From: Heterotrichella gracilis | Lineage: Eukaryota; Sar; Xanthophyceae; Tribonematales; Xanthonemataceae | Direction of reading: 5' to 3' | Assembly (NCBI GenBank): GCA_032358255.1 | Contig: JAULBX010031370.1 | Coordinates: forward strand, 124,001-188,000 | Length of the DNA: 64,000 bases | In this document: piece after piece, positions 1,711-62,300 of the stretch | How positions within the stretch are numbered: the stretch's first letter is position 1 | Layout: the number at the start of each line of letters is the position of its first letter | Notes under the pieces: model-generated | Seen by the model: the letters and a program-made list of their open reading frames with translations, nothing else | Databases searched by the model: none | What the model was told of the DNA's origin: nothing | Made by a program: the position numbers and the translations under genes

Positions 1711-4700
1711 ATGGGCAGCGCAACCAGCGCCAGCTTTTCCCGCACACTCTCCTCCTTTTCCCAGCACATGGCTCAGTGTAACAATGGGGCGCTCAACCAG
1801 CCCGCGCCAGCCTTTGCTGCCATGTCGTTCTTCATGCCCTTTCTGCAGACCACCCCCTGGACCCGCATGTCTGACTCGGATATCCGCCTGATCTTCAATG
1901 ACATGGATATCGACAACAATGGCAAACTGGACTTTAAGGAGATGAAGGTGAGGGCTGGTTGCTTTTGCATGCCTCCCCAACATCAGGAACCGCTGTGCCG
2001 GGGAGTTGCCAGTGCATCTTTCTTACAGCTGGCTTGTAATCATCATTCTGTTGGTTTGTCATGAAGGTTGCCCTGGCTTGCAGTCATGGAAATCAGCTAA
2101 TACATGTCATTGTGGTATTTAGGTTGCCCTGGCCCGGCTGGGCCTGCCCTGTGCCGAGGACTATCTGGCGGACATGATTCGGCAGTACGACAGGAACAAT
2201 GATGGGTCTGTGGACTTCCTTGAGTTCAAGGCCTACTTGCAGAAGCACGAGCGCAATATGAAGGCGGCGTTTGAGGGCCTTAAACCCAAGGTAGGGTGCT
2301 GGGAATTAAAGAGGCTAAGATTCAATAAAAGGCTGCCTGTCGTTCTCTTTGGCACCTCCTCTTCCTCGACCAACAGGCTTTGTTCCACGTGCAGCATATG
2401 TATATTGGAAAGTAAAACATGAACAAAGTTTTTTTTACTAAATTTCTGTAAAACAAAGTCAAGTCAATTAGTCAAAATTCAAAACAGCATTATTCATTTC
2501 TGCATCCCGCCCATGTGTAGGACGGCCAGGTGAGCGTGGAGCAGCTGGAGCGGGTGCTGCGCAGGGCGGGGCTACCCGCAACCCGCACCGACGCACACAA
2601 AATGGTTGAGCTGCTGGACAGGAATGCAGACAGCGCCATCAGCTACGAGGAGTTCTGCAGATATGTGTGCCTGCTGCCCGCTACCCAGGTGAGGTGGTGG
2701 TGGTGGCGGTGGCGGCGGTGATGGTGGTGGTGGGGTGGTGGTTGTGGTTGAATGTTGCACAGTTGCGCAGTGCGGGAACCAGTTGGCACAAACACATGCC
2801 TCGCAAGATCAGCTGGTGTGTTGTGGTGTGGGATCGTGCAGTCTTGGTTGGTGGGACCACATGCAATGACTGTCAACCCCTTTCTCTGCCAATGCCTGAC
2901 GCCAAACCCCCCCTCACCAGGTTGACAACCTGAACGTGATGTACTGCTGGTTAGACAGCGCAGACTGGGTGGCGGACATGGAGTACAGGTGCGGCTATAG
3001 CCTAAACCCTGACGCGTAAACCCTAAACATGGGGTACAATCGTGCGGCGGTGGCAGGCGCATCAGGTGCATGACACCAGATAATATTCATACTAATTTAT
3101 ATTTATTTTTAGTGTACTAACATCCACGGCACCCGCATATTGACATCGATTGAGTGGATGGCTTTGGGCAAGCTGTGGCAATGGCACAGGCATCACTTGC
3201 AGACCATGGTCACGGACATCATGGCCAACATGGGGATCAGTCAAACATGCAGACAACGCGGTTCAACCTTTATCAAGTATCCAGCTCATCACATGCCGCA
3301 AAGGGAGCACATGGATCTCGACACCCCCCCCACTCAGCATGCCCCCCACACGGAATCCCCCACTGCAGGCTGTGCATGACCCCCCCCAACCAACCCTTCC
3401 AGCGCTTCATTGCCGGGGGCCTGGCGGGTGCGGTGTCCCGCAGCGCCACGGCCCCACTCGAGCGCCTGCGCACCATCATGATGGCCAGCAGCAGCTCGGG
3501 ATCGGTGGTGGAGGTGGCGAGGAGCATGTGGCGGGAAGGAGGGGTGGGAGGTGCGGGGATGCACTTGCAGTCGATGCACACATCAGCAATGCGCCTGCCG
3601 CTGGGGGAAACACTCACCACCACCGTTGCACTACCGCCACCGCTCTTTCATTCCTCATCCCACCCCCCGCCAATGCCCTGTCATTACCACCCCCAACCCA
3701 TAAACTGGGAAACCTGGCCACCAGTCACAAAGGCAGCCATCAACTGCTCTTTGTGTAAGGGTGCATGGCAATGTGCATGAAAATTGCATGGCATTGTCAT
3801 CCACGCAGGCCTGTTCAGGGGCCAACCTGTCGCTCCCGCCTCCCTCCCCCCCTAAACCCTAAACCCTACATTCCCCTACATCTGCGCAGGCCTGTTCAGG
3901 GGCAACCTGGCCACCATCCTCAAGGTCTTCCCCAACTCCGCCATCAGCTTTGGTGTCTTTGACGCAACCAAGGACCTGTTCCTCTCGAGCCACAAGGGGG
4001 CGGAAAAAGCCTCGCTCAAAACCCACGAGCAGCTCCTATGTGGCATGGCTGCGGGAGCTGTTTCCTGCGCTGCTACGTACCCCTTGGACGTGCTGCGCAC
4101 CCGCATGTCCATCCCCGGGAATGGCGCCAGCCTTGGGAAGGTGCTTCTTGGCATTGTGAGGACGCAGGGTGTGTGGGCGCTGTACAACGTGAGTGTGGGC
4201 CGGGGAGGGTGGGGGGTGATGGCCGGCCATGTTTTAGGTGATGCAAATGCGATGGAGGATATGCTAATGCCCCACCAAGCATCATTACCGCCCACCCGCA
4301 CTGATGATACCACCAGCACTCTCGAAACCACCCCACCCAATATCACCACACCATCACCAACCTCCGAAATTACCCTTCCCTAGGGTTTCCGTGCCTCCCT
4401 GTTCTCCGACGTGCTGTGCGACGGCATCGGCTTCTTCATGTATGAGATTTGCCAGGCCTCCTTCCGGCGCATGCACGGCGGCAGGCAGCCGAGTGCCAAG
4501 GAGAAAGGGGTGATGGGTGGCATGTCGTCGCTGGTGGTCATGACCACGATCATGCCGCTTGAAGTGGTCATGCGCAGGCTGCAGGTGGGGACCGAGGTGG
4601 CGTGGGGTAGTCCCACAGGAATTTCAATTTCATGCGGTTGTCTGATATGGACTCTGGCGTGGTTAACACACTTGAATGTCGCAGGGCCCTACTGCGCAAA

Positions 4701-5028
4701 TTTGTGCTGTATCCATCCCATGGCCCAGGGCACCAACTTTCCGCATCCCACTCCGTGACCCCCCACTGACAATCTCCCATCCCATGTGCAGCTGCAAGGG
4801 TCCCCGGGGTACCCCATCCAGTACCGCGGCATGCTGGACGCCTTCCGCCAAATCATCGCCAAGGAGGGGGTGAGGGCGCTGTACCGGGGCCTGTTCACCA
4901 GCTATGCCAAAGTGGTCCCCTCCATCACCGCCATGTACTTCCTGTACGAGCTGCTGTCGCAGCAGTGGGGCATCGGGGGCCTGAGGCGGTACAAGCAGCT
5001 GGCACTGGAGGAGGAGGCGGGGAGGTGA
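1711..5028 (+). CDS. EF-hand (Ca2+-regulated) mitochondrial carrier, SCaMC/APC-like
   Basis: Likely an inner-membrane mitochondrial solute carrier of the Ca2+-regulated ATP-Mg/phosphate class. Exons I could phase: 1711-1947, 2123-2290, 2521-2688, 2921-2988, 3369-3550, 3890-4188, 4384-4584, 4792-5028; all joins keep frame. The N-terminal third has EF-hand loops (DMDIDNNGKLDF; YDRNNDGSVDF) and two weaker ones (DGQVSVEQLE; LDRNADSAISYEEF). The C-terminal part has three carrier repeats with the motifs TAPLERLRT, YPLDVLRTR and MPLEVVMRR. The third lacks the usual Lys/Arg at the last motif position. The first ATG is at 1711, but the frame is open further upstream, so the true N-terminus is uncertain. 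Substrate cannot be read from sequence. The stop is followed by a duplicated copy of the gene's own 3' end. Confidence 0.85.
3801..3830 (+). repeat. Intronic echo of a carrier exon start
   Basis: The segment GCAGGCCTGTTCAGGGG plus its AG acceptor occurs here and again at the true exon start near 3,886. The intron therefore carries a second, nearby candidate 3' splice site. Confidence 0.75.
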
Positions 5029-5130
5029 CGTGAGGAGTTTAGGGTTTAGGCCAGGGCTGTTTAGGGTTTAGGCCAGGGCTGAGGCGGTACAAGTAGCTGG
5101 CACAGGAGGAGGCGGGGAGGTGACGTGGGG
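4981..5130 (+). repeat. Duplicated 3' end of the carrier CDS
   Basis: The last 53 bases of the gene region (4981-5033, including the TGA) reappear at 5079-5130 with a few changes. A TTTAGGG-rich spacer separates the copies. The second copy lies in the 3' flank. Confidence 0.8.
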
Positions 5131-6767
5131 AGCGCTGTTTAGGGTTTAGACCAGGGCTGGGACTGCGGTGGGTGGGTTGTTGGGTGGCCCAGGCCACAGC
5201 ATTTCGCACTAAATTGGATTTTGAATTGTGGACTGTGCTTGGCCACATTATGGCTTTGAATTGTTGGGCGAGGCTTGCCCACAAGGCGCACCGCAGTGCA
5301 TAACTAAATGGAGGGCGGGGTGCAGATCAAGGTGGTTAGCGTTCTGCAACAGAGCTGTGCAAATGCCAATTGCGCGCAGAGCTGGGCATGTAGGGGGAGG
5401 ACCTTATCGCGGTGTGGGGGGATTGAGGAGGTGGCTCAAGAGGTCACGCGATTGGTACAACTTTGGAGTCTTGATGGGACCTGCACATATGAGTGCAACG
5501 CTATGGGTCCTGTGTACTTTGACTGCATTTGGCAAATAAAGCATTGGGAGGTGCAAAGATAGAATCTTTCCACTCCGACTGGGCGTTATGGGTGAGGGTT
5601 GAGGCTAAGGGACATGTCACATTGCCATGCCATGCCATAGTGTGGTGCCCCTTAATAACGGTCAATGAGTCTCAATCTTTGCATTTTAAGTATATTTCTA
5701 ATCAGAAATATCATGTACCGTTGGGTGCCTCCTTGGGAATAGGTATTTCTTACAAATTTTATGTGGGCATTACCATTACACCAGTGATGCCAAGCGGGGC
5801 ATTGGGTCCATTTTTTGCACATTTTCTGACTTGAGAAACCTCACCAATGTACAGATGGGCACACCTGTATTGGTCTTTGAGTTTTAAACCGTTGGCGATG
5901 ATGGAAAAGGGTGCCATTGTTGGTGGGGCATGTATTTGTGGGGACAGCAGTTGGCCCCTCAGGGGACCAAAATTACCCCCACCCTCTTTCCTCCCATTCC
6001 ACCGGTTGCCCACCAGAACACAAAAGCGCGGTGTGCACAACTAAACTTGTAAGAAACTCCTTATCTTGGCCTTTCCCAGGACAACAATATTGAAAACTGC
6101 ACAACCGAACTGCAAGGGAACCTTGTGCTTCTCATAGATAACCTGGACTTTAAACCGAGTTCAAATGGGGGTCGCATGTGAGCTCGACGAAATGTACAGC
6201 CGCGATGAAGACACTTGAAGCCTGCGGCGGTTCCAAGTAATAAACAGGTTGTCTGGTGAGTGGAGTGACGACGTATTTACTGTGCCAATAGCCTCCGTTT
6301 CCCTGCAGTCGTGCACTTGGGTGACTTGTAACGTCAAATATGGGGCCAGGTGTGAAAACCACCGCATGGCCACAATATATCCTGGTGACTCAAACTTTGC
6401 TTATCACATGAGCATATATGTAGAGAACACTAGGTGATGATATACTATATGTGCTTCAATCGTGCAAACCAATGCCGCTGCTGTGCCTAATGCTTCATAG
6501 GCCATTCCAGGCTTTTCAGCATGCCAACTCTGTTTGCCCTTGAGCTGTTTGGGAACCATGCGAGCCAGCAGAGTATCTGAGATAGGTTTTCAACCCTGTA
6601 CACCTTGGTTGGACTGCACAAAAGACCATTGGCACCACCCAGTTCTTGCACGTGGTGATCTGACCTCATGTCCCTTGTGGGTTGGCCTCATGCACAGACA
6701 TGTGGGCGCCATATGATGCTCTTGCAGAGCTGACAACATAGTGCCTGTTGTGTGGCATGCAGGAGCA
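5029..6767. other. Intergenic region
   Basis: It starts with TTTAGGG-type motifs and the echo of the carrier's end, then AT-richer sequence. I found no exon with matching phases or recognisable domain. It probably contains the 3' UTR of the carrier and the promoter of the ankyrin gene. Confidence 0.5.
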
Positions 6768-9700
6768 ATGGGGAAGCGCACCATCTGTGGGGCTGGGTTT
6801 GAGGGAGACCAGAGGGGGCAAATTCACGAACGCTGTACCAAAACAGGGGACCTACAGAGCAATGCATTGTCAGCACCAGCAGTCCAAGAGCCTGCTTGCA
6901 GTACCACAGACGGAGTACATGCCAAGGTGGGTGCTTGTCATATAATAAGTGTTCTCTACTAAATAAGGGCTTGGCCGTTCCAAGAGGGGCCCGACCAAGG
7001 GCTGACTGTTGGTGCACATTGCCACAGGCGCAGCAGGATGACTGGGACACCTTTGTGGTGCACAACTGGCGCCCTGCACTGGAGATAGTGTATGGAAAAG
7101 CGTGGAAGGACCACTTTGGCAGCGAGGTGGCGGCAATGCTCCACCTGGCACTGCACCAGTCCTTTGCCAGCGGCAACGCAGAGCTCAGGATTGCTGAAAC
7201 CACCTCCCAGCAGGAGGCCTCACCCGATGCCTCCCAGCCGCCCACCGACAGCGAATCAAACTCTTCAGCAGAGGAGCACAGGGGCGACCTGGCTGGCTCC
7301 CCACCGACTGTCCTCCCCTCAGCAGTGCAGCCGCCCTCTTGCAAGTGCCAGACCTGCGGCCCTGCCGCACCAGCCAGCGGGAGCCAGCAGCAAGCGCAGC
7401 AGCAGCCCACATCAGCCGAAGAGGTTGCCGGGCCTAGCCAAGCAGTGGATCCACCAGAGCATGAATGTGGGCATGGCTGCAGCCATGCGCCTGTACCTGG
7501 TAGTGCGCTGGCAGGGGGGCATATTACGGGCGAGCTGGCAGCCATGCTCTCAGCCTCTCTGACAGCCCACGTTGCAAGGATGACCCGAAACAGCCCCCAG
7601 GCGGCCGTCCAGGACGCTGCTGTGGCTTCGCTGATCAACGTGCCGTCAGGTGGCAGTGGTTCTGTGGCGGCGGGGGACCCCCTGCATCGCCAGGCCATGA
7701 TGCTCCTGCGCGAGAACATCCTGGATGGCATCGACTGCTGGGGCAGGACGCCTGTGCACATTGCGGCGGCGGCTGGCAGGGCGGACATTGTGCAGCAGCT
7801 GCTGTTTGCGGGGTGTGATGCGGCCAAGATCCTGCCCATCGATTATAGGTCAGTGATCTCCCAGCTGCATCGATTACAGTGATCAACCATGCTGCATGTC
7901 AACATGTCCCAAGTGCTGGTCGTTCTGTAATGATTGGAATGTGCGTGGGTGTAGGTCAATGCATTGGGTCATTGGACAGCGCAATTCATGAGAAGACTCT
8001 TCATGCTGCATGTGTGACCCATGCATCCAATGCATGCATGTGCTGATCCCATAATCCAGTGCATGCGCAGAGGAATGCAGCGACACCTCAGCTATAATCC
8101 TCAACCCCACATCCAATGCATGTGCTGGATGTTTCGCCAAACCCTAAACCCTACATCTGATGCATGCGCAGGGTGTTGCAGCGGCACCTCAGCGCCCTAG
8201 CGAGCCCGGGGGAGCCCCTCGCCCCCGCCTCGCCCACCGCACCCGACCCCCCTCCATCCCCCCGCGTCGCCGTGGACCTCGCCAGCCTGCACTCAGTCAC
8301 CTTCCAGTACTGCACAGCCCTCCACCTGGCAGCGCACGCGGGTCACCTGCCAGTGGCCGAGGTCCTGCTGCAAAGCGGCTCGGTGGATCCTCGCGCCCCG
8401 AATGCCGTGGGGTGCACCGCGCTACATTTGGCGGCGCAGCAGGGGCACGCGGCGGTGGTCTCCCGGCTGTGCCAGGCAGGGGGAAATATTAATGCGGAGG
8501 ACCAGGCGGGGCGCACGCCGCTGCACTATGCGGCGGGGCTGGGCCACGACGCGGTGGTGGGGGAGCTGTGGGCCAAGGGGTGCAATGTTGAGGGGGCGGA
8601 CAAGGCGGGGTGGACGGGTAAGTTGCTGGGTATTGAGTTGCATATGGGTTCAGCCAGATCAGCAGTCAGCCTGCATGTCTAGGGAGCAGCTAGCCCGTCC
8701 TGGCGCTGCTTGTATATCTCTGCATCGGCGGATTGCAATGCAGCTAGTGGGTAATGGCATGCACATTGTCAATGCCTCCCAAAGTGCATCGGCGCCGCGC
8801 AGTGCATGCTGTTGACCATCACAACTGCGGGGTGTTCTTCAAACCCTAACTGTGCCCTAACCATTGCTGCGCAGCGCTGCACTACGCCACCGAAGGCGGC
8901 TTCACCGAGGTTGTCTCCAAGCTGGTCATCGCTGGCAGCCCGGTGCACAAGGCTGAGCGTGGCGGCTACACCCCCGCGCACATCGCAGCCTGCAAGGGCT
9001 ACCACGACATCATGGAGAGGCTGCTGCATGCGGGTTACACGGTGGACACCTTTGGGAGCGCGAGCGGGGCGGCGGGGGGCGGGGGCAGCACGGCGATCCA
9101 CCTTGCCGCGCAGCATGGTCATTGCCAGGTGAGCCCATGCATATCCTATGCTCAGCATGTGCATGTGCATGCATGCGTCTGAATTTGAAAGTGGTATGGA
9201 TCGTGCGTTGGATTTTCATGTGCACCCGCTTGAGCATGGCGACAATGCAAGTTAGGTAGTGCAAATAGGAGCAGTACAGGGATCCAAGATGTTGCGGAGC
9301 GTGGTGATTGTTTGGTGAGCCCTGCATGTAGGTACATATTGAGTCACAAGCTATCCAGCAATGTAGTCAAGAAAGCAGCACCACACACGTTTTGCATGAG
9401 GGAAGTGGGGTGGATTTTGAACGTGACTTTTGCATGAACATGGCAGGGGCATACGGCACTTTCAACCTGCTGGACAGCACACACCCCTGCCTTGTGAGCA
9501 CTGCATGCACGGCCTTGCATTCAAGAAGTGGGACGAGTGATGCTTTAGGTTCAGGGTTTGGCATCTAGTGCTTAGGGTTAAGGGTTTTGCTGAGGGGCCG
9601 CTGTCCCTGGCCGCAGGTGGTGGACAAGCTGCTTCGCTCCGGCGCCAACCCCAGCCTGCGGGACTTCCGCGGCCGCACCCCGCTGCAGTGCGCGGCCGAG

Positions 9701-12700: not shown

Positions 12701-15700
12701 GGATGCGGGGGGCGTGAGCGGGGAGCGCGCGCTGACTGCGCTGCACCTGTCCATACAGCTGGGGCAGCCCCAGCTTGTATCGCACCTGCTGCGTGCGGGG
12801 TGCTGCGATGTGAATGCGCGCGACTCAGAGGGGCTCACGCCGCTGCACTGGGCCGCCAGCAAAGGTACGCGGTGCTGAACATGATGGTTTATTTTCACTT
12901 CTAGGAACAGGCACATGTGTTGCGTATTGTCTTTGCTTCCAAAAATGAAATGAGGTTCGTTTCATAACTACCACTGGGTTGCCAGCAAAGTATACAAATG
13001 GCATCAGCAGATGTTTTTTGTTGCATTGTGTCAGAGTTGAGTAAGTAGCTGCCACACTTGAAAAGAATGGACACTGGAAAAAAAGTGCATTGAATATGAT
13101 GTCACTATGGTAATGACACCAAGGTGATGATACCACCCCGTCACTATGGTAACACACCTTGCTGTGTGCAGGCCACGGGGACATGGTGGACCAGCTGCTG
13201 GCCAGCGGCGCCGCGGTGGACGTGGCTGCGGTTGACGGGTGCACGGCGCTGCACAAGGCGGCGCACGGGGGGGCGCTGGGCGTGGTCAAGAAGCTGCTGA
13301 CCAGCGGCAGCCAGGTGAGTGTGGAGGGGTGGAGGGCGTGGGGGTGGAGGGGGGCGGCGCCTGCCGAGTGCATATGCCACCTGCTTACTACTCAGTGCCA
13401 TTGGATCATGACGCCCAGGTCAACCTCAAGATGCCAGTGTCTCCCTACTGCCGAACTTCAGGGTTGGGGCATTGTCATACCATGCGCATTATTGATAGAT
13501 TTGCGCAAAGGCTAATCCCAAGTCTGCCAAAGGCTCTCAACATAGAATTCAGGCATTTGTCAACAAAATAATAAGGCCTTAATCTTATAATATTTAACTA
13601 ATCAAACATATTCTCTTCCTGCAGGCCAATCTCAAGTCCGCCAACGGCTTCACGCCGCTCCACTTTGCCGCCGCGGGCGGCCACCTGGACGCACTCAATT
13701 TCCTGCTGGCCGCCGGCTGCACCCCAAACACGCGCACCGCCACCGGCACCACCGCGCTTTACTGCGCGGCCTCGGGCGGCCACGTGGCGGCACTCGAGCG
13801 CCTGCTGGAGGCCGGCAGCGAGGTCGATGCGCCCGCAACCAATGGCACCACCGCGCTGCACGTCGCGGCGAGCGGCGGGTTTGCCGACGCGGTGTCGCGG
13901 CTGGTCGGTGCGGGCGCCGACATGGACCTGCAGGCGCACAACGGGTGCACCGCGTTGCACAACTGCGTGACCAACCTGCACGTGGCAGTGGCGGAGGCGC
14001 TGGTGGACGTCGGGTGCGACGTGGACATCCAGAACGCGCTGGGCAACACCGCGCTGCACGTGGCCTCCTCCAAAGGTGGGTGGGTGGGGATAAATAACAG
14101 CAATTTCAGCAGTAGATCCAGGTCAGCAGGCACGGTGCTGCACAAGCGGCGCAAGCATGTTCATCCTGTTTGTTGGCCATTCTGCATTTGGTGCAATTTT
14201 TCTTCATGCCACCCCACTCGCTCGCTGTGCAGGCAGCCTGCCCATCATTGAGACGGGAACCCTTCATGCATGCATATGTTATTTGTCATATTTTCACCAT
14301 CTTATTGTACTGAAACACCTTTCTACATACCTCCATGTGCAGGCAGCCTGCCCATCGTGGTCAAGCTGCTGGCCGTCCTCTCCCCGTGCATCTGGCATCG
14401 TAGTAAACCCTATACCCAAAACACCCGCCTCCTTTCCGCCCTGTGCAGGCAGCCTGCCCATTATTGACAAGCTGCTGGCCCGCGGCTGCGACATGCACAT
14501 CAGGAACTCAAAGTCGTGGATGGCGGTGCACTCGGCAGCCAGCGCCGGGCATTTCGAGGCGCTGCTGCGGCTGGTGCAGGCAGGGGCGCCCTGGCGGCAT
14601 AAGGCGGACAACGACGTGGTGAAGATGGTGTGCAAGAAGTCGAGCTACAAGTGAGTTGAAAGGGGCGTTTTGCGGGCATGGCTGGAAATTGGGGGGTGCA
14701 TGCAATGGGGGAATTGGTATTGACACAGCGGTTGCTGCAGTTGGGGGCGTTCTGGGGGACAAGGGGAAAACCAGTGCTTTGGTGTTCTGTGTCCGCCCCG
14801 GCAGTGAGTGTTGTACATTTTAATCCATATCTGTTGATCAACTTCCATTTTCCCCCACGCTGGCTCTCAGACCCTAGCCTTAAGTCTCAAACCCTATCTT
14901 TAAACCCTAACTCCCAAACCCTCTCCGCAGGCCCACCTATGTGGAGGGCCGGCTGCGCCTGGCTGAGAAGGAGCGGCAGCGCGTCAAGGTGCGGCCACCT
15001 GCGGGCGAGGACGGGGTGCAACCCGGTGCAGTCCCCACCCCCGAGGAGCTTAGGCAGAGGGAGGAGGAGGCCAACGCACACATGGCGCAGCTGCTGCTGC
15101 AGGAGGAGGCTGAGAAGGTGCGGGGTGATGGTGGTGGTGGTGGTGATGGGTGGTGGTGGTGGGTGGGGTGGGTTGTGGTTGGGTCTGTGTGGTGGTTGGG
15201 GTGGGTGGTGGTGGGGTGGGGTTGGGGGCATGTATTGTATGCTGCCATGTGTTAGCACTGATTGGTTCTGAGATGGTCTCTGTGTACCCAAAGTGCCCTA
15301 AACCCTTAACCCTAAACCCTACCCCCTAAACCTAAAGCCATAAACTCTAAGCTGTAAATCCTAAGCCTCAATTGCTTAGGAGCTTTCCTTCTTGTGGGGC
15401 CTGCAGGAGGTCCAGGTGAAGAAGAAGAGCAAGAAGAAGGACCGCAAGAAGAAGAAGGGAAAGAAGCAGGCCTCGCAGGACGGCTCCCTCACAGACGCAG
15501 GCAGCGACCCTGGCACAGCACAGGAGCCAGCTGCTATCGAGCCCGAGACAGTCGCACGCTCAGAGGCTTCTGACCTTGCCCAGGAACCAGCTCCTGGCGC
15601 AGCAGGGGCAGCCGTGCGTACGGGTGCCTCGGGGACCTCCGGCCAACCCCAGGGATCAAATGCTGATTCAGCGGGCACGGTTAAAAGCTCCAAGACTGCG

Positions 15701-19199: not shown

Positions 19200-21284
19200 C
19201 TACAGCTGTACTTCACCCGAATGGTACCATGACACCCCGCCGGGGGCCTGCACATCCCCACCGGCACCTGATCCTCGGGACTGCGTGGCTGCAGCCACCC
19301 CCCACTGGCTCAGGTGGCCAAACAGCTGGTCAAAATCCACCTGGATGCCCATCGCTGGCGCCGCCTGATCCGCCCACGACGGCATCGGGGGGGCGGACGG
19401 GCCCTCATCGCCATCCCCTAAGGGCTCTCCCCTGCTGGGGCTGCCACCCTTGCTGCCATTGCTTGTGGCCTGTCCAGCATGTGCCTTCTGGAACCCATGC
19501 CTCATGGGCATGGACCCCCTCCGACTCACAAAATTTGGGTCATTTCTGTGGGACCGGGCGTGCGCGCTGGAGTCGGTCTCGCTCTCATCGATGGACTCCA
19601 TCGAGGACCGCCTGGCGCTCTTTTTGGCCCCCTTCTTGCTGGTGGTAGTGCTGCTGGTGATGGACACGCTGCCGTCGCTGTTGACCGTCATGCGCCCGTT
19701 GATCACCACCCCCGCCCCAAACACCACCTTGGGGGTGGCGCGTGTGCTGCTGCCGGAGCCTCTCCCGCTGCCACCGGTCTTGCTGGGTTTGTTGGAGGCG
19801 GCTGCGCTGCCCAGCAGCTCCTCTCGCTGCTTGCGGTACTGGGTGTTGGTGTTGGCGGTAGTGGGCGGGTGGGTGGTGGTGGCGGTGGGTGGCTTGCGCC
19901 CCTGCTCCTTTTCTCGCTTCAGGTCTTTTTGGTCCTGCACAAAAGGAGGGAAAACAGCGTTGGTCAGCATGGCACACAGGACTGGGGGTATCAAAACAGG
20001 GGAAGCAAGCGCGGAGTGGTTGCCCCTGCTGGCTTGTGGCAATGCCGTACCAGTTGTAGCGCCGTGTATCATTTGCTACAAAAAGCTGCTTCTTTGCTGC
20101 AGCAGGTATACATATGCACAACGCCTTTTTGCCTAGAGGGGTTTGTGTCAACGTGACGCCATTCTCGTCGCTGCCTACCTACTCCATGGTTCTTGCACCC
20201 TGAACCCTTAGATGTGAAACCCTAAAAACCCTACCCGTAACCCCTGCCTCGTGCATCTTGCAGCCTGGGCAGTAGTGCTATGCCCTGCTGCACCACTTGA
20301 TTGCCCATGTGAACAGGCACAGCAGCTGGAAGTATACTCCACCTGGCGACAGGCATGGACTAAACCATAGACCCTACCACATGCTTCTGCTGAGCTCTGA
20401 ACCCTTCATCCCACAACCTACCTCACCTCGTGTTTCTTGCACCCCGGACAGTAGTGCTGCGCGCTGTTGCGCCCCTTGACCGCCCGGTATCGCTGGTCCG
20501 AGCATGCGCAGCAGTTGGGTGTGTACTCCAGCTGACACCAAGTGTGACCACAGCGCTTGCTGCCATTCTCTCCAGGCTGCACCTCCCAGTCATCGGTAGT
20601 CTCTGTGTAGCTGGTGGAGGTGGCCGCTGGCCAGGGCTCCACATCCAGGGGCGGGATGCCGTCGGGAAAGGGGTTCTCCTGCAATAGGACAGTTTAGGGT
20701 TTAGGGTTTTGAAAGGGAGGGAAGGGGTTCTCCTGTATTTGCGACCTGACAAAGCTAAGAAGGGTGAGCCTTGGGCTACAGGCGTGAATGCTGTAATAAA
20801 CAAAGCAATGCAGCGTTCTCATGATACCACACTGGAGCAAGGTGGTCGCAACAATACCTATCACGCACTACAGGTTGGGGGGTTTTGGGAAGTGCACTTT
20901 GGTGAAGCCAAGATGTCCTATAGGGCGGGTTAAGGCACGTACCGGGTAGGAGGCCTGGGCTGCTGGGTACTGGTCCTGGTACGCAAACGGTCCGTCCCCG
21001 TACACAGGGTCGACCGCAGGCTGCGAGGTGGTGGGCATGCCATACAGGTACTGGGTGTGGGCCTGAGGCGTGGCGGCCCAGGGCGCGTTCCCGTCGTAGT
21101 TCAGCTCGGTAGCAGAGTCCATGAAGTTCGTCGGGTACGCTGGCGAACCCCATGGTGGGTAGCCTGTTGCGATGTTGCTGGCAGGTTTGGCGTACGCTGC
21201 ATCGGCTCCACGTGGTGTGTCTCCGGACTGGGAGCAGTGGCAGTGGTGGTCACCCTTCACGCGGGTGGACAAGCAGCCGCCCAT
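19200..21284 (-). CDS. Unrecognised protein with N-terminal MGGC acylation motif and Cys-rich segment
   Basis: Three exons join in phase 0: 21284-20943, 20678-20427, 19934-19200, giving about 442 aa. I do not recognise the family. The first ATG begins MGGCLSTRVK, a textbook N-myristoylation site (Gly2) with an adjacent palmitoylatable Cys4, so membrane anchoring is likely. Residues about 115-198 contain a Cys/His-rich region (CGHTWC, then CCAC, then YCPGCKKH) that could bind zinc. The last exon is Lys/Ser/Thr-rich low complexity and includes a short beta-rich stretch (VVFGAGVVINGRMTVNSDG). The gene diverges from the DUF2256 gene across a spacer of about 1 kb. The intron after exon 2 holds a decayed copy of exon 2. 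The exon model is solid; the function is unknown. Confidence 0.75.
20243..20350 (-). repeat. Decayed copy of the Cys-rich exon
   Basis: About 108 bases match 20,423-20,540 (3' part of exon 2 plus donor) with many substitutions, for example CAGTAGTGCT and GTATACTCCA versus GTGTACTCCA. The copied donor is mutated from GT to GC. Confidence 0.7.
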
Positions 21285-39459: not shown

Positions 39460-40250
39460 TGTAATGTCCACAGGAGCGTGCGGTTGTGGCGTATGCATGG
39501 AATGGAGATATCTCACTTGCGCGCAACCCCAGCCACAATCCTAGCCAACCACACAACCATGGCCCAAGGTGCACTTTGTGACTGCCCATGTGACACCCGC
39601 AGCAGTCAAGATGCGCTGATTTGGAGTTTGTTTACAAATGATACACCCCCGAGCGTGTGCCTGTGAGTTCAAGTGCAACGAGGCTAACATTGCTGTGCAT
39701 CACCGCGCGACTGATGCCACCTACACCTCCCGCGCCTCCAACCCCTATGCCCCCTTGCCACCAACCCGCTCCCTCTCCTTCATGCCCCTGGTGCCCTAGT
39801 AAGCCTGGCCCTAAGCGACGCCTCAGGCCTGCACCATGCTTATTTGCTACAACTTCCTGCTGAGGCGACACATGGCGCTGCTCCCTGACCTACCTGTACT
39901 TCAAGCCCTTGATCATATCCTTTTTTTTTAGTATATATAAAACATTTCCTTCAATACATTTATCTTGTGTCGCGAGCAAGAGATGCCCCCCACAGGCGCT
40001 GTTTGGCCTGGCCCTGCGCGACGCCCCTGACCCCACCCTGTGCGCCCTCCTCAACCAGCTGCTGAGGCGACACCTGGCGCTGGTACCAGCTGCTGAGGCG
40101 ACACCTGGCCCAGCTGTTCCCAAACCCCATCCTCAGGCACCAGCTGCACACGCTCATGCAAATTGGAAGGCATGGAGGGGCTGCTGGGTGGGTGGGGCGA
40201 CAGGGGCAGCTGGGGGAGTAGGGCGACAGCCCTAGGGGCTGCAGCTGTTG
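39460..40250 (+). pseudogene. Partial AP5Z1 copy (exon relics)
   Basis: 39,474-39,612 matches the AP5Z1 exon 36,342-36,479, but its donor GT has become AT. 39,850-39,900 and 39,998-40,180 match exon 36,705-36,927 with an internal repeat of the GCTGAGGCGACACCTGGC segment. No continuous frame survives. Confidence 0.8.
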
Positions 40251-45978: not shown

Positions 45979-46020
45979 CCATACGCCATACGCCATACGC
46001 ATACGCCATACGCCATACGC
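45979..46020. repeat. CATACGC tandem repeats
   Basis: Six or so CATACGC/CATACGCAT units in a row, with related ATACGGG words scattered to 46,100. They lie next to the 3' side of the hAT transposase and may be its subterminal repeats. Confidence 0.75.
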
Positions 46021-48555: not shown

Positions 48556-48565
48556 GTCGTGACAA

Positions 48566-48689: not shown

Positions 48690-49267
48690 TGTCTATTGCT
48701 GACCTGTAGCGCCCGAAACCGCCGACTGCAAATTTGAACCCACTTCAACGTTGCAATTCCCAAACAACGGGGAGTCGGGGACCCCTTTTTAAGCTGGGTA
48801 CTTCACGGAGTGGGCATCAAGTTGGCTCGCTATATTTGTGTGTGCTGCAGCTCTCCCAGGTGTGCCTTGTAAGCCTTATAACTATGGCCAAACAGACTTG
48901 TGTTGCATGCATGCATCGGTCCCCGTAAAACCCTTATTGGGGGTTATTGCCGCCCACAGGCGATATTTCCAAGACGGCTGGGATGTACTCCAACCGGTTG
49001 CAAACCCTCGTACCTCCCTTATACAACAGCTGGAAGGGTTTCACTGCACTAAACTACTATATCGACTCTGCTGCCCGAATCGTGCCCCCACACTGCTATC
49101 TGTCACCCTGTCTAATGCATGCATACGGTGCAAAGTTGTCAGCATGTTGTGCGCCACGCAGCTGGCCTTGACCCCCACATCGCCTAGTGATGCAATAGCT
49201 TAGCACCTAGGTGCATATAGATTCACAGCTAGGCTATAGCCGCCTACGGACGTGGGGTTCTGCTACC
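48690..49267. promoter_or_regulatory. Divergent Y/Z spacer, copy 2 (likely Z promoter)
   Basis: Patchily similar to 41,695-42,240 (see there). It directly precedes the intact Z gene. No exon seen. Confidence 0.45.
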
Positions 49268-51458: not shown

Positions 51459-51607
51459 GGGTTTTGGGCCACGGGTTCTGGGGAGGCTGTTCATTTTACT
51501 GGGCAGCCGCGTGGTGTGGGTGTGGTGGGTGGTGGAACAGCCCCGCTGCAATGTAGTTTCGCAGTGGGATATGCTGTCTCAAAAGGAGTTATGGATTGTG
51601 TTTGCGG

Positions 51608-51612
51608 TGTAA
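51608..51612 (+). terminator. TGTAA poly(A)-type signal of gene Z
   Basis: TGTAA 150 bases after the Z stop codon. Confidence 0.45.
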
Positions 51613-53309: not shown

Positions 53310-56300
53310 CTAGGCCTTGCCCCCCGTCTGGGCCGCCACCTCCGCCGCAAAGTCCACCTCCTTCTTGGCAATACCCTCGCCTAGGGTGTAGCGCGCAAAG
53401 CGGCGCACCCGCAGGTTCTCGCCGATGGCTGCGATGCACGACTTGATGTGCTCGCCCACTGTTTTGTTGGTGTCCTTGATGAAGGCCTGCTCCATGAGCG
53501 ACATCTCCTTCGCGATCTTGGCCACGCGACCGTCCACGATCTTGGGCCTGGGGGGAAGGGGGACGGGGTGGGATTAGTGGGGTTGCAGACTTTCAGGTAC
53601 ACTAGTTACAGGCTTCTGAAAAGAACCACTTTTGTTTTAAACCTAATGAAACAGGGGCCCAGCTTCATGTACAGCGTCGCCTTCACAATTTTGCCATGCT
53701 TACGGACTATTAACTTCTTATTACCCTTGGGGTTGGTGGTGTGCGGGGCCATAGGGATGAGGGTTTAAATAATCTTGCAGTACTCATTTTATCCTGCCGT
53801 TCACCCGCCCGCATGATGCCGCATGATGCCCAACCCTCGTTCCACCACCTTCACATGCAAGCACCCCCACCCCCGCCAACCCCACATCCCGTGCGCCCTC
53901 AACCCTACCACTCCTCACCTGATGACCTGGTCAGGATGTCCTCCTCGCCCACTGATCTCCCCTACACCCCTTCAATATGCACCACCCAACTTCCACCCTA
54001 AACCCTACAGGAGCCCTAAACCCTACCACCCCTCACCTGATGACCTCTGGCCTTGTCAGGAAACCCTCTCAACATCAACTTATCGCTTGTCCATCTCAAC
54101 ATCAACTCTCAATTGCACATTTGGCAACCCCTACCCTTCAAAAGCAAGCCTCACCTGATCGCCTCTGGATGCCCCCTTGCCCATCTCAATCTCATCCCAC
54201 CACATTCTCATGCAAGCACCCCCACCCTCCACCCCCCAACCCCAACCCCACATCCCTGCGCCTCAACCCCTGCCACCCCCTCACCTCATCGCCCCTAGCC
54301 TGGTCCTGCTCTTATCCTTGCCCACAGATTTGCCAACTTTTGAGTAAGACTGCCTTAACTGTAGCCCCCCTAAACCCTACAGGAACCCTGTACCCTACCA
54401 CCCCTCACCTAATTGCCTCCGGCCTGGTCAGGATGTCCTCCTTGCCCATCTCAATCTCGCGCTCCCTTGCCAGCACCTCGGCAGGCACATCCTCCACCGA
54501 CACGTAAGACACCCCGGGGCAGGCAGCGATCTGCATGGCCATGTCCTGCAGCAGCTCCTGGAACTTCTCGCCGCGCGCGACAAAATCGGTTTCGCAGTTG
54601 AGCTCAACAAGCACGCCCAGCCTGCAGGATGGGGGCAGTAGGGTTTAGGGTTTAGGGTTGAGGTTTTGCAGTTGAGGTCAACCACCACGCCCAGCCTATA
54701 GGATAGGGGGGTAGGGTTTAGGGTTTTGCAGTTGAGGTCAACCATTACCCATCAGCCTGTAGGATGGCAGGTTTAGAGTTATGGGTCTAGGGTTTGTTGC
54801 TACTGACCAATGGTGCAAATGATGTGATTACCAGTGACTACTATGCTGCTGACAGGTACGCATGGCCTCCCGCGCAACAACATCCTGCATAACCACCGTG
54901 CAATACCATCATGCGCACCCACATTGCACGTTTGCCACCCAACGCCACCCACCCACCCCCACCATCACAACCCCCACCCCCTCCTCACCTCGACCCCGCA
55001 TGGATGTACTGGCCGATGCACCCCTCTGCCGCCTGCCTGCCCGCCTTCTTCTCAGCGGAGGCCAGCCCCTTCTTGCGCAGGAACTCAGTGGCAGCCGTGA
55101 TGTCGCCACCTGTCTCACCCAGCGCCTTCTTGCAGTCCATCATGCCTGCACCGGTCTTCTCGCGCAGCTCCTTCACCACTGAGGCGGCCACCTGCAGGGG
55201 GGATGAAAATGTAGTTCATTTTAAGATAAGGAGAAGAAGGAATATGATGTTTTACAGCATTGCATGAGGTTTGAACAGACTTTGTACCTTTAAGGCGGCC
55301 ACCTGAGCGGAAGTAAAGACTGTCCAAATCAAATCACGCGTGACGTACATTACAAATTTTGTACTTGCAATTTTTGTAAAAACCAAAGGAGTACAACATC
55401 CACACACATGCTCGTCAACACCACAACAGTTCTTCCATGGCATTCCAAAGCTTGAGAGAGGACATCAAGGTTGAACTCCACTGGGCGGAGATTATAGAAA
55501 TGACAGTATACAGCGCTTCTATTTGCTTCTACGCCTAGGCAAATGCCATGCGACACCACCTCGTCAAAACACCACGGCGCCAGAGTGAACACGCTCTCAC
55601 TTACACCACTGGCCAGGAGCGACCTCAGGACAGGAATCGGGATAATTAGGGCGGCAACGTACGCGCCGACGCCCAAGCTTTTCCAAACTGTGTAGGATAA
55701 AACTACGAAAGATGAAATCCATCCCATAAATCCCAATTGGTTTAGGTGATTGTAGCATACCTGCACCACTGGCTTGGCAGGTGCGGCCTCCTCCTGTGCG
55801 GCAGCTGGCGCCTCCTCCTTCTTCTGCTCAGCCTTGTCGCTCATTGCCTTGGTCTGCTCCTCAACCTCCTTGGCAAGGTCAACGGTCTTCTTCTCAATGC
55901 CCTCGCCAAGCACATACCTAAGGGGTGGGGCGGTGAGTGGGTGGGGAGGAGGAAAAAGGGTATGGCAGAGTTACTTCAGGTGGAGGGAGGAGGGGAAGGG
56001 TAATATGATTTGACAAGTAGTGGGGTGTATGGGTGGGGATCACAGTAGGAGGGTACGGAGGCAAGGGGAGGGGGCGAGGCATGTTGGGCCACGGGGCGTA
56101 GTGAGAAAGGGAGTGTGGTGGGGCTAGGGTGATTCTGATGGGCTCATGCATGCCAATGGTGCCAGTGCAAGACATGGTTGGGTCCACAATGTTTGATGCA
56201 ACCTCTGCCACGATTAACCTGGCAAAACTAGCGATGGTGGCGTTGCAAAACCCTTATTATTCAACTCCCCCAACCCCCTATCCACCTCATCTCTCAAAAG

Positions 56301-59300
56301 CACCTGATTCAAACCGTTCCTCAATGACCGCCACTGTCTCCTTCATCACCTGCTCCACAATCTTGTCATTGTCCCTAACAAAGACTCTAGCCATTTTCCT
56401 CCTCTCATCTTGACAAACCCTACACCTCCCAGTTCTACTCTCTTTACCCCTCCACCCCCTCCCACCCCTCACCTCTCAAAACGCCTGATCTGGATGTTCT
56501 CCCCAATGGCAGCCACCGTCTCCTTCACCACCTGCCCCACGGTCTTGTCGTTGTCCTTGATGAAGGGCTGCTCAAGCAGGGACATGGTCTTGAGCGTCTT
56601 CTCGATGCGCCCAGCCACGATCGTGGGCCTGAGGAGTGGGGTGAGGGAAGGATTGGAATGGGTGGAGAGATAAGGATTGAGACAAGTTAAGGGATGAGGA
56701 TTGAGTTGAGAGTAGGGACGGGGATTGGAATGAGGGATGGATAGAGATGTGTGAGGATGTATGGGAAGCATGGCGCACGCGGGGCAGTGCCGCAAGTTCT
56801 CAGAAGCTGTGTCTGGGTATGCGCAGGAGACGGTGCAGGCAACCCTGCAACCAGGCACATGCACCGCAGTGTGCACCTTAATTGTGCAACGCCAATGCTG
56901 ATGGCCCATTCCCCAGGCTCCCTGGACATGCGCCCACCGTCCCCAGAATAAAATTTCTGTTCTCAAAGGCGTGCCAAGCCAGTGCTCGGTGGGGCAAGCC
57001 GTGCAAGGGTGACTGCTTACGTGGCTGCACTGGTGGAAGTACTGAAGCCGCTGTGTGGACGGGCCCAAATCAGATTGCCTCCGAATTGCTCTGATACCTT
57101 CTCTGCCCAGTTTGATTCCCCTGCTCCCCTAAAACCTCTTCATTATGCACCATCCAACTTCGCTCCTAGACCATACGTAAACCCTATCATCCCTCTCACC
57201 TGAATTCCTCTGGATTGCTCCAAATGTCCTCCTTGCCCATTGATCCTCCCACACCCCTTCATTACGCACCACCCAACTTCGCCCCTAAACCCTACAGAAA
57301 CCCTAAACCCTACCAACCCTCTCACCTGAACTTCTCTGGCTTGCTCTTTATGTCCTCCTTGCCCATCTCAATAGCAGTCTCACTGTCCTTCACCTCCTGG
57401 GGGACGTCCTCAACGCGCACATACCGAGCGTCGGGTGAGGCGGCGACCTGCGGGTGGGCGGGTGGTGGGCGTGAGGGGGGGTGGGGGGTGAGTGGGTGGG
57501 TTAGGGTGCGAGGAGAGGGGGTGAGTGGGTCGGTGTGAGGTGAGGCAGCGGCGTGCAGGGTGGGGTGGGTGGGTGGGAGAGCTAAACTTTAAACCCTCAT
57601 AAAGACAGGTTCTTTTGTAAGAAAAGGGTAGGGTGGCGGGGGGTGAGGGGCAACCCCCACCCCCACCACGCCATGCCGCATTCCCATCCCAACACAGGGT
57701 CTGAATACAGACACGCGCAGGCATCAGTGCAATGAGGTTGCTTAGTCAAGCCTAGGCGTCTGTGCCAACGGATGCAGCTGCATAGGGCCTGGGAATGTGC
57801 CCATGTGCTCAAGTGTCCAGCCGTGCCTGCATGGCCATGGCTAAACCAATCGCTCCTGGGCACACGACAAATACATGCAATTTCCAGGTGAATACATACA
57901 AATTCATGGGGTGCGCACCTGCATGGCGATGTCTGACACCAGCTAAACCTATGATTTCTGGACAAACAATAATTACATGCAAATTACACGTGATTAGATA
58001 CAAATTCGTGGGGTGCGCACCTGCATGGCGATGTCTGACACCAGCTCCCTGAACCGCTCGTTCTTGGACACAAAGTCGGTTTCGCAGTTGACCTCAACCA
58101 GCACACCCAGCCTGGACATGAGCCAGCAGAGGAAAGTCAGCAGGAGTCCAATGGAGGGGCTTTCCAAACAGTGCCATGCCCCGGATTTGTACACAATGCA
58201 GTACGCAACCTATGAGCCCCAGAGAGAATTCATTGATCCCTGTACGCTTTTGGCCTCCATTTCGGCCCCAGAACGTTCACGCTGTGCGATCCCTTCCATC
58301 CTTCCTCAATTTTAACCCAGCCCTGTATGAATGCGCCCACTAGACCCTCAGCTCCGCCCCCACGCACTGATACCTTCCCCTAAATGATCCACACACCTTG
58401 CTTCTGTATGGAATTCACATACTTGTATGCACAAACGTAGGCCCTCAAAAGGTCACCTATCACCTTCTCCAAAATGGCCCACGCACCTTGCCCCTGCGTG
58501 GATGTATGCCCCCACCAGGCCCTCTGCAGCCACCCTCCCTGCCTTCTTCTCTGCTGAGGCAAGACCCTTCTGGCGCAGGAACTGCAGAGGGTGTGTGGCA
58601 AGGACATTAGAGTGGTGGGCATGGGGCAGGTCGGTGGGAGGTCATGTGACTGGCATGTGCGTCCCTTGCATGTGAGGTGTGATGTTAAAGGTCGCGATGC
58701 ACGCCCAGCAGGTGGGCTGGGGTGCGGCTGATTGCCAGGCATGTGTGAGGTCGTGCGCTGGCATGAAGGGCGTGTGGGGGCGGGTAGGCATAGGTGGGGC
58801 TATGCCTTCACTACATGGCGCCGCAATAATGGTGCAGCAAAGAGCTGGTGTGCCACATGCATGCGCCTGGCAACGAAGATATTGCTGAACCAATGCCAGG
58901 TGCCGAACACTACCACCGCAAGCTATAAACCTTCCCCATCGCCCGCAACGAACACGCATCACCATTCATCACGGAGCTGCCACCCGCAGCCCAATGCACC
59001 CCGCCCTTCCTATGCCATCACCCACAGCCCAGCAAATGCACCGCCTCCTTCATATGCCATCTGCTCACCCATCACAACTTGCCCATCACCCGCAACCGCC
59101 CATTCACCCCCCCCGCTCGCTTCCACCCACCTCAATGGCCTTCTCCAAATCCCCATCCACCTCGCCCAGCGCCTTCTTGCAGTCCATCATGCCCGCCCCC
59201 GTCTTCTCACGCAGCTCCTTCACAGCCTGCGCAGAGATGCCAACCTTGGCCGCCTTGGCAGCAGGCGCAGCCTCCGCAATCACCGGCTCGGGCGCGGGCG

Positions 59301-62300
59301 CTGCCACCTCAGCAACCACTGGGGCTGTCTCGGGCTCTGCAACTGGCGCAGCCACCTCAGCGACTGGCTCGGGAGCTGCCTCAGGCTCCGGTGTGGCTTC
59401 GGCGACTGGCTCGGGCTCGGGGATTGGCTCAGCCACCTCGGGCTCGGGGGCAGCCTCGGCCACTGGCTCTGGTGCTGCTGCCTCCTCCTCAACAGCGGCC
59501 TGGGGAGGGGTATGCCCATGGGCTTCAACCTGTGCATGTGCATGTATGATGGATGCAGGCAGTCGGTATTTGATAATACAACTTACAAAATACAGAGTGA
59601 GTTTTCTTTCCTTCATTTTTCTCATTTTTGGTGATTTTTCTTTTGTCTTTTCTTTAGCCTTTCATACACTTTGGTGCCAGGAGCCTGCAGCCGCGCTCTA
59701 TGCGCCAGCAGGTGCGGCATGCCAAGGTGCACATGGGTGGCAGGGTGTAGCGAGTGACTGGGGGCGGAGTGGGCCAGCAGGCGCTTACAAGTACAAACAA
59801 GCACCTCTCACAGGGTCTCTCAATCACAAATGCGCAATAAGTATTATGGTGTGACTGCACAGCGGTCTGGAAACTTAACATGAAAACTGCTGAAAACTGG
59901 CCATCCGTTGCTGCATCGCTGGGTGGGCTCACATGTTGCAAAATGCTGCGAAAAAAATTGAACTCGAAAAACAGAGGACAAGCGTTGTTCATGATGTAGA
60001 GCCGGCAGGGTAATACCTGGGGCAATGCCCTTGACAGCTGCAGTGCTTAGTGCTGCGGCAACGATTGCACCTCTGCTACTGGACAGTGCTTGTAGCAGTG
60101 CTTGCACCCATGCTACTGGACAGTGCTCTGTGGCCGTGCTTGCGTCTCGGCTACTGGTTAGTGCTGTGGCAGTGCTTGCATCTCTGCTATTGGTGGCGTG
60201 GTGAGGCTGCATGCGGTGAAGGTGAAGGGCAGGGTTCAGGGCCCCACCTCAACTGGGGCCTCCTCAGGCACCGGCGCCTCCTCGACAGCTGGCGCCTCCA
60301 CTGCCGCCTCAGCAACAGGGGCCTCCTCAGCCACTGGCGCAGGCTCCTCAGGGGCCGCCACCTCAGCGACCGGCTCCTCCACTGGCGCAGGCTCCTCAGG
60401 GGCCGCCACCTCAGCGACAGCCTCCTCCACTGGCACAGGCTCCTCCACCGCCACCTCGGCAACAGCCTCCTCCACTGGAGCTGCCGCCTCCGCCACAGCC
60501 TCCTCCAAAGGCGCCTCCTCGGGGGCCGCTGCGGGCTCCTCCTCAGCGACAGCAAAGGCCTCGCCCCCGGGGAACATGTCGCGGCGGATGCCGACCTGCG
60601 CCAGCGCGTACTCCAGGGAGGTTGTGGCGTTGGTTACTCCGATGCCCACCCCCTTCTCCTTCATGTCGCGCTCGCGTTTCCGGTCCTCGTCGGTCTTCTG
60701 GGTCAGCTCGATCTTGCTGCCCTCAACCTTGACCACGCGGGCCTGCGCCATGGGGGGTGACAGGGCATCAGTCCTTTTGCTGTAAATGCAAAGCAACCAC
60801 CAAGCAACCCGCAGAACAACATGCCGCAGAAATTCGCTGAACTGAAACAGGAACAGAAAGTGAACACTCCCTGTTGCTTTTTCAGACTCAACTTCTCCAA
60901 CAACATGGCAGCAACTTTCCAAAACACGGCATCACCAGGTTCAAGATGCAGTGGCGACGCCTTGTTGCCATGCCATGCCACGCCATGCCATGCCATGCAA
61001 ATCAATGCAATGCCATGCCGTGCGGCCACCCACCTCGATCTCGTCGCCCTCGCTGACCAGGTCCTTGGCTGTGGGTGCCCGCACGGTGCTATCGTTGGGC
61101 ACGATGAACTCCTCGGTGCGCATCAGCCCCTGGAAGCCGCCGCCCACGTCCACAAAGGCGCCAAAGTTGGTGACCTTCATGACCTTGCCGGTGATGACGT
61201 CGCCCTTGGCCACGGGGGGCGGGGCGCGCTCCCGGCGCTCCTTGCCTGGGGCTGCGGGGTGGAGGGGCATGTGCATCAGGTGATTGCGATTGGCAACAAG
61301 ATAGGAGGGCAGTGCATGCGGTGGGACTCCAGCCCTGGTATCAGGTTTGGTCCCCACCCAGAATCTAATACACATGGGACGCATCGGCTGGAAGCGGAGT
61401 GCATAGGACCAAAAAGTGTACTTGCAATCCGAACCTAACATGTGATGATGGTAGATACGCGTACATCCATTACAGCAAAAAATCGTCATGAGGTGGTATG
61501 CTGGCAGTACGAGTGAGTCCGCTACCAAGCTTCATCCCACTAACTTGAAGTGTGGTAGTTCTACGCTCCTGCTTGATAGTGGATACCACCAACCACTATC
61601 GTGAAACCTAATCATCGAGATGAAGTGGTAACAATCCTATCCCACTACCTACTATCCACACTATACTGAATCGAGGTGAACTGTTGGCAGTATCGTCTAG
61701 TCCCTTACCACAACCACTGACCACAATGTGCCTGGAAATGCTGGAGTATGGCTAAACCCTAAACCCTAGGCAGCAGCTCCTTACCGCGGGTAGCCACCTT
61801 GCCGCTGCGCTCCTGCCTGGCGGTGGGCCCGCGCGACCCGCGGTACCCACCCTCGCCCTCGCCCCCGCCGGAGCCCTGCTCAGCGGGCTCCTCCAGCACC
61901 ATGCTGCAGGAGAACTTGCCGGTGTCCATGTCCACGGAGGTCACCCGCACCTTGACGGCGTCGCCCATGTTCACAATGTCCTCCACGCGCTTCACGTACC
62001 CGGCCTGCATTGAGGGGATTGCTGGTCTTAGATTAAACCAACCAAACAACAATAATTATGAGACATCGTCCACAATATCCTCCACACGCTTGATGTACCC
62101 GGCCTACATGGTGCAGGAACAGCCTGTCACCCTCCGGCCCAAACGCCGATGCCTTAAATCAGGATTCAGCAGGGTGCGCATGCAAGCAAAGGCTATGTGC
62201 GGTGCTGAGAACCCGGCTTGCTTTTGCCGGCGCTTGGCATGGAACGGCATGGGTGGCAGTCGAGGACAACGTGTATGTGTGTGCATTTGTATATATGGGT

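Follow-up and report, generated by a model that had tools for sequence, protein, structure and literature searches.

Introns in a 64,000-nucleotide stretch of the genome of the xanthophyte Heterotrichella gracilis (contig JAULBX010031370.1, positions 124,001 to 188,000; hereafter the window) carry diverged copies of the exon edges beside them, which we call echoes. Our comparisons support a concentration of these short duplications at exon edges beyond what gene geometry and detection allow, and sequence of the genome's telomere repeat is tied to them as filler between the copies. Such exon-edge duplications are not confined to the window, as they occur on other contigs too. We give an even chance to the explanation that echoes are scars of short tandem duplications left when staggered breaks at exon edges were repaired, part of the filler coming from telomerase or telomeric sequence. 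Intron growth and the source of new splice sites are open questions for which few cases have been caught in the act. On a broader and more tentative proposal, introns would grow outward from exon edges by a defined and ongoing mutational process, with tandem decoy splice sites as a by-product.

Direct repeats at exon edges

The window holds 45 direct-repeat pairs (period 40-1000, E≤0.01), compared with none in each of 20 dinucleotide-preserving shuffles. At a looser cut (E≤0.1) and a spacing below 300 bp, 42 direct pairs were found versus 2 inverted ones. The original prediction had listed 22 echo positions, and 20 of these proved to coincide with a significant direct repeat under the stricter criterion or to fall within 40 nt of one. 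The two that miss are 49790, where the best match is 11 nt, and 58389, with 30 nt at 83% identity (E 0.1).

The window's contig is 513 kb long and belongs to a 68.5-Mb assembly of 903 contigs. A universal 18S rRNA word was looked for and gave no exact match. Comparison loci were picked by contig number prior to inspection, and four of them adjoin the window. Exon labels throughout are the predictions of a home-made, self-trained ab initio gene finder. Its first run over-predicted introns and was discarded; the final model used a stronger short-exon penalty and was trained without bacterial-looking loci, and the main counts were redone with it. The splice sites that it learned are sensible (donor CAG/GTGAG, acceptor GCAG/G, the slash marking the junction), and it predicted 484 introns in 275 kb, with a median of about 250. 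It fuses adjacent genes and at times labels an echo as exon.

Events were defined as the pairs left after removal of overlaps, of pairs with both copies exonic and of long periods. From 121 pairs, a first tally removed 27 that overlapped a better event, 16 with both copies exonic, 5 with a period above 400 and 1 of low complexity, leaving 72 events. The final tally removed 27 overlapping, 16 both-exonic and 5 long-period pairs from 119, leaving 71 events, of which the window holds 23 and 148 kb of other loci the remaining 48. This 212-kb total excludes three bacterial-looking stretches of 10 kb each (L006, L007 and L014), which are still included in the first tally, the detection simulation, the flank test of telomeric clusters and the tract-to-splice-site distances. 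Loci L001 and L020 were omitted from the event, flank and placement counts. The bacterial-looking stretches, two on contig C1 (894 kb; L006 and L007) and one on contig C100 (L014), have a GC content of 35-37%. Both C1 stretches are labelled 81-83% coding, L006 with long bacterial-type open reading frames, and C1 looks Bacteroidota-like when judged by eye only; bacterial contigs seem to be present in the assembly.

Among the 72 events of the first tally, quartiles were 103-184 bp for the period (median 123), 61-116 for alignment length and 78-87% for identity. The earlier proposal of repeated local duplication, graded in its divergence, is supported. Most copies differ by 5-30%, which makes duplication during assembly an unlikely cause. 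The spacer between copies has a median of 50 nt, a lower quartile of 15.5 and a 5th percentile of -66 (71 events); a minority of copies abut or overlap, the negative values coming from overlapping copies in arrays. Event density ranges from 0 to 13 per 10 kb per locus. Two multi-copy arrays, at L018 5502-5960 and L016 7805-8129, repeat an acceptor or donor edge plus a piece of exon at up to 93% identity, looking like recent repeated events.

Predicted exons are touched by 68 of the 71 events. A donor only is crossed by 32, an acceptor only by 20 and several sites by 8; another 8 reach an exon, but their exonic copy has no predicted splice site, and the last 3 miss exons altogether. The earlier claim that echoes span splice sites does not extend to these last two groups, nor to the repeat at 4978..5159 of the window, which lies at a stop codon. 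Plain exon-crossing counts are insufficient here, because short introns make random duplications cross splice sites and exonic ones are purged. We took the extra copies out of the sequence, placed viable duplications in it at random, equal in length to the observed ones and similar in divergence, and subjected them to identical detection (900 per setting, of which 807 and 662 were detected and 664 and 660 kept). At ≥85% identity, 26 of 27 observed events touched an exon compared with 272 of 664 simulated ones (p 2.7e-9); at ≥70% identity the counts were 63 of 68 and 341 of 660. This simulation retained the three bacterial-looking loci. A corrected placement null, built on the new gene models with those loci removed and on geometry alone, without a detection model, gave a similar picture: at ≥85% identity, 27 of 27 events touch a predicted exon versus 48% of genic placements (p 2e-9) and 32% of all placements. 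Outside the window, all 20 events at this identity do so. The intronic part of the repeated unit has a median of 12 nt, compared with 36 expected from placement. On predicted exons, then, there is an excess at exon edges over random breakpoints, as had been proposed.

Further support for this position comes from telomeric clusters, whose recognition needs no similarity detection. Of 71 clusters, 67 lie in predicted introns, 1 is exonic and 3 are intergenic, and 30 of 66 intronic ones have a splice site no more than 20 nt away, where 21% would be expected to. For four-unit tracts, 8 of 18 intronic loci fall within that distance versus 3.6 expected. These come from 20 of 30 such loci, since 3 overlapped others and 7 form the telomere at the end of contig C70; among the 20, one has no predicted gene around it and another overlaps an exon. 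Telomeric tracts cluster 5-27 nt from splice sites.

Telomeric filler between copies

TTTAGGG/CCCTAAA is the telomere repeat of this genome, because eight-unit arrays of it open contigs. Such an array has 33 matches over 11 contigs, starting five of them within the first 7 bases, standing at base 138 of a sixth and lying on the opposite strand on the other five. A telomerase RNA-binding domain is encoded (PF12009, two matches on contig C626, both above the cut-off). The telomerase locus itself (L021) has, by eye, repeated exon-edge copies with telomeric runs between them. Genome-wide, the 14-nt word TTTAGGGTTTAGGG has 5629 matches, compared with 5 for its reversed control. In the window we counted 33 telomeric runs of at least 10 nt, whereas the 19 other cyclic arrangements of these letters gave 0-2 apiece.

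The link between this sequence and the duplications goes beyond the original prediction. Runs such as accctaaaccctaaaccc often read between copies. Direct repeats with a score of at least 30 flank 31 of 74 telomeric clusters (L021 included, and 1 of 75 clusters dropped for short flanks), compared with 188 of 1480 positions drawn at random from those loci and 0 of 1271 pairs of swapped flanks. A telomeric run of at least 8 nt occurs in 19 of 51 spacers of at least 20 nt, compared with 76 of 1530 (5%) event-free intron pieces of the same lengths. Across 16 stretches, telomeric density follows event density (Spearman 0.85). A comparison of the 51 spacers with 19 stretches found no clear dispersed sequence in common beyond telomeric words. 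Among distant spacer matches, 280 contain a telomeric heptamer and 15 do not, the latter being mostly degenerate telomeric, low-complexity or exon-like.

Echoes in the window

Genes of the window include a mitochondrial carrier, an ankyrin/U-box gene, a Na+/H+ exchanger, a hAT transposase and an S1/EF-Ts polyprotein. A polyprotein of this kind, like TTTAGGG telomeres, would suit a green alga. The repeats found in and beside the window's genes are the following, in window coordinates with the strand in brackets.

3798..3829 (+): intronic echo of an acceptor edge (decoy acceptor) of a mitochondrial-carrier exon, 91% identical to 3879-3909, E 0.002 (gene match Mito_carr, 5.8e-60)
3850..3868 (-): exact 19-nt telomeric (CCCTAAA)n run in the spacer between this echo and the true acceptor edge
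3879..3909 (+): true acceptor edge of the mitochondrial-carrier exon, predicted exon start 3890
4978..5159 (+): tandem copies 4978-5059 and 5076-5159 across the carrier stop codon, 86%, E 7e-22 (frame by eye)
4978..5159 (+), same repeat: TTTAGGG runs at 5137-5149 and between 5037 and 5072
8060..8193 (+): weak pair 8060-8092 and 8161-8193, 85%, E 0.023 (under the event cut), the gap holding a telomeric run at 8139-8153
14225..14480 (+): acceptor edge in three copies, ankyrin/U-box gene (pairs 14225/14441, 14226/14336 and 14313/14419)
20247..20534 (-): echo pair 20247-20345 and 20426-20534 in the gene model containing the Na+/H+ exchanger, 72%, E 3e-7
24102..24364 (-): acceptor-edge echo pair 24102-24158 and 24308-24364, 86%, E 1e-11
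24863..25062 (-): donor-edge echoes with a telomeric run at 25002-25015, 74%, E 1e-12
25104..25298 (-): acceptor-edge echo pair 25104-25165 and 25237-25298, 87%, E 3e-14
25496..25804 (-): exon edge three times in tandem in the Na+/H+ exchanger model, with AT-rich filler and no telomeric run, 81%, E 5e-42
26012..26312 (-): echo 26012-26091 of the exon end 26232-26312, Na+/H+ exchanger gene (PF00999, 1e-45), 94%, E 2e-27
26602..26968 (-): exon-edge array of several copies, pairs reaching E 1e-37, telomeric runs lying between 26712 and 26811
33184..33522 (+): exon-edge array of three copies, E 6e-29 and 1e-30
34666..35317 (+): multi-copy array of an exon and its donor, best E 4e-69
36826..37171 (+): donor-edge pair 36826-36966 and 37029-37171, 78%, E 1e-24
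53836..54448 (-): donor-edge echoes in the S1/EF-Ts polyprotein gene with telomeric runs at 53995-54025 and 54368-54379, E 1e-25
54588..54794 (-): acceptor-edge echo with TTTAGGG runs at 54639-54659 and 54712-54726, E 1e-5
56267..56556 (-): donor-edge echo pair at an EF-Ts-domain exon, the segment being doubled in the predicted protein, E 1e-12
57134..57366 (-): donor-edge echo pair, E 4e-24, telomeric runs lying between 57283 and 57312
57840..58046 (-): donor-edge echo pair, the model protein having a doubled LVSDIAMQ, E 9e-27
61969..62109 (-): acceptor-edge echo pair at an S1-domain exon (PF00575, 7.8e-27), 86%, E 4e-6

The repeat at 4978..5159 sits in the 3' flank of the carrier gene rather than at a splice site, the gene finder having wrongly placed a donor there. 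The echo at 26012-26091 was labelled exon, and a telomeric run (25995-26009) lies immediately outside it. At 36826..37171 an intron equal to the period was considered and rejected as an artefact, the acceptor having been predicted within a GGT repeat. A structure-set search with a segment of the Na+/H+ exchanger returned no match.

Alignment to Thermus thermophilus EF-Ts supports two of the three EF-Ts echoes only. It gaps inside the doubled LVSDIAMQ stretch of 57840..58046, and at 57134..57366 it leaps from query residue 138 to 191, skipping the predicted second copy. For 56267..56556, with its doubled DNDK... segment, the match stops near the end of the bacterial chain, so that the alignment speaks neither for nor against this echo. 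The same polyprotein gene contains Ala/Glu/Pro-rich coding tandem repeats at 59258-60553, where most in-frame exonic pairs were excluded from the counts. Elsewhere, a hAT-family transposase gene (Dimer_Tnp_hAT, DUF659) occupies 46355-48552 on the minus strand, and a 94-nt piece at 85% identity is common to 36674-36767, in the gene near 36.7 kb, and 39881-40058, which suggests a partial gene copy.

Origin of the echoes

Under repair of staggered breaks, the DNA would break at or near exon edges with its nicks offset, and fill-in on both sides would double the segment between them, roughly 30-120 bp. Filler, sometimes telomeric, would be laid between the two copies while the ends join; the simplest route to telomeric filler would be extension of the exposed 3' ends by telomerase ahead of joining. 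A doubled segment that lies across a splice site would leave an extra copy inside the intron, and the spliceosome would retain the copy in context and remove the other with the intron, where it would decay as an echo. The same duplication within an exon would in most cases disrupt the protein and so disappear. Each event would lengthen an intron by about 80-220 bp, and repeats would accumulate. The direct repeats, some tens of bp long and separated by short filler, are those expected of staggered-break repair; the staggered breaks themselves, telomerase as the enzyme, exon-centred breakage, the splicing-out of echoes and their neutral decay are what we infer. The original prediction spoke of duplication centred on splice sites. 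As a description of position this stands; the cause may be breakage centred on exons together with selection, and not that splice sites are recognised.

The predicted intron is longer than the period in 40 of 58 splice-site-crossing events, by at least 114 nt in 30 and by 8-84 nt in 10, which suggests that existing introns have grown and not that new ones were born. For two of the 40 (4978 and 36826) the predicted sites are wrong or doubtful. The intron inflation proposed earlier seems to take place, and tandem candidate splice sites are left behind: at ≥80% identity, 15 of 17 donor echoes retain GT and 24 of 25 acceptor echoes retain AG, so decoy sites are abundant. This count set aside 24 donor and 10 acceptor mappings in which the model used both copies.

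Orientation of the telomeric tracts also varies with their position. On the sense strand, G-rich tracts are donor-side in 19 cases and acceptor-side in 6, and C-rich tracts in 11 and 30 respectively (Fisher p 1e-4); for tracts no more than 30 nt from the site the counts are 10 and 3 versus 9 and 18 (p 0.017). This skew would follow from telomerase extending both ends of an intronic break, or equally from selection, which could yield it because TTTAG ahead of an acceptor is itself a decoy acceptor.

Several observations weigh against telomerase-assisted repair of staggered breaks. In 18 of the 58 crossing events the predicted intron is shorter than the period, which we read as the model using both copies as exons. 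No telomeric run of 8 nt is present in 32 of the 51 spacers, some of which are AT-rich, and telomeric filler is therefore not universal. Young tracts within 20 nt of a donor are G-rich in 3 cases and C-rich in 5 (n=8), the latter being the orientation that extension of the left end by telomerase would not give. Several arrays have the telomeric run within the repeated unit, so that the tract is older than at least the last duplication. Protein homology backs the exon labels for only some window genes, and events that share one array or gene are non-independent, which makes the p-values optimistic.

Each step has a precedent in the literature cited here, and we file the combination as a variant of known repair outcomes. 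Telomerase has been described as inserting interstitial telomeric sequences at double-strand breaks in mammals (Nergadze et al., 2007; PMC2246262). As at those loci, we find short internal tracts of the genome's own telomere repeat, an encoded telomerase and some duplicated flanks. Flank duplication is given there for 6 of 130 rodent and 4 of 25 primate loci, deletions being commonest, whereas here the clusters lying between direct repeats are 31 of 74, mostly intronic and beside exons. Evidence there comes from empty orthologous sites and junction microhomology; ours comes from the sequence of one genome. Action of telomerase on free 3' ends in transcribed plant DNA has been proposed (PMC3022908), and telomere words within genes are common to both cases. 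The plant motifs described are short, densest in 5' untranslated regions and biased to the first two introns, whereas exon-edge duplications are the feature here. Repair of adjacent nicks on opposite strands gave tandem duplications at induced breaks in mouse cells (PMC5730883), likewise of tens of bp and there from end joining of staggered breaks; telomeric filler and the exon-edge bias are features beyond that account, which in turn cites Schiml 2016 and Vaughn & Bennetzen 2014. Finally, an intron of a potato RdRp gene was gained via tandem duplication spanning an intron-exon boundary (PMC4974935). Its unit, like ours, contains an intron end, a splice site and an exon start. That case concerns one gene and a new intron, whereas here existing introns seem to grow in many genes, and about one spacer in three has telomeric filler. 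Our search of the open-access literature recognised no report that combines exon-edge duplication with telomeric filler.

A broader proposal is tentative, and we consider it possible rather than probable: that introns partly record telomerase-assisted break repair aimed at exon edges, in which exons or their transcription or splicing mark the breaks, telomerase seeds the filler and splicing hides the duplicate. Thousands of internal telomere-repeat tracts, many of them next to datable duplications, would let such a process be measured directly. In a genome of this kind one could ask if breaks are directed by transcription or by exon chromatin, and test whether telomerase joins internal repair.

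A rival reading, somewhat unlikely in our judgment, makes the telomeric tracts the cause: pre-existing tracts beside splice sites would be fragile and break repeatedly, each repair duplicating the flank. Arrays in which every copy has its own tract (L016 7805-8129, L012 1654-1857 and 2794-2999, and L050) fit this at least as well as they fit filler added by telomerase. The gathering of tracts close to splice sites also agrees with it, and telomeric tracts are described as recombinogenic and fragile in other systems (PMC6410037). However, at L009 5372, L018 6477 and window 3798 a clear tract stands solely between the copies, and the origin of the tracts would be left unexplained.

Ordinary local tandem duplication, by slippage or end joining and with no role for telomeres, could draw on the placement figures above, where geometry alone puts 48% of genic and 32% of all viable duplications on an exon, and on the majority of spacers that have no telomeric run. 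The edge position would then come from short introns, purifying selection and slower exonic decay. Both the simulation with detection and the corrected placement null fall well short of the observed counts, and the telomeric enrichment is unaccounted for; we regard this reading as improbable.

Birth of introns by tandem duplication of an exonic AGGT segment (the Rogers model) would give an intron of one period whose ends echo both exons. By eye, units do often contain AG/GT, and the potato intron arose from a duplication over an intron-exon boundary (PMC4974935). With 30 of 58 predicted introns exceeding the period by at least 114 nt, 10 by 8-84 nt and the other 18 ambiguous, this model is very unlikely to account for the echoes.

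Retention of echoes or tracts as aids to splicing, G-rich ones after donors and C-rich ones before acceptors, would agree with the orientation skew, and tract-free introns skew alike, with an excess of GGG after donors and of CCC before acceptors. Yet the enriched branch-point-like words are CTCAC and CTGAC, CTAAA occurring in just 3 of 207 introns, and the young donor-proximal tracts are more often C-rich. Since retention might explain orientation and not the duplications, we think there is very little chance that it is the answer.

An introner-like mobile element inserting beside splice sites with long target duplications would produce repeated exon-edge insertions with direct repeats, and is extremely improbable, as the 51 spacers compared with 19 stretches clearly share only telomeric words. 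Replication slippage, which the original prediction had named as a possible process, is not supported: it predicts abutting copies, and the observed copies are separated by a median of 50 nt, with telomeric runs in 19 of 51 spacers.

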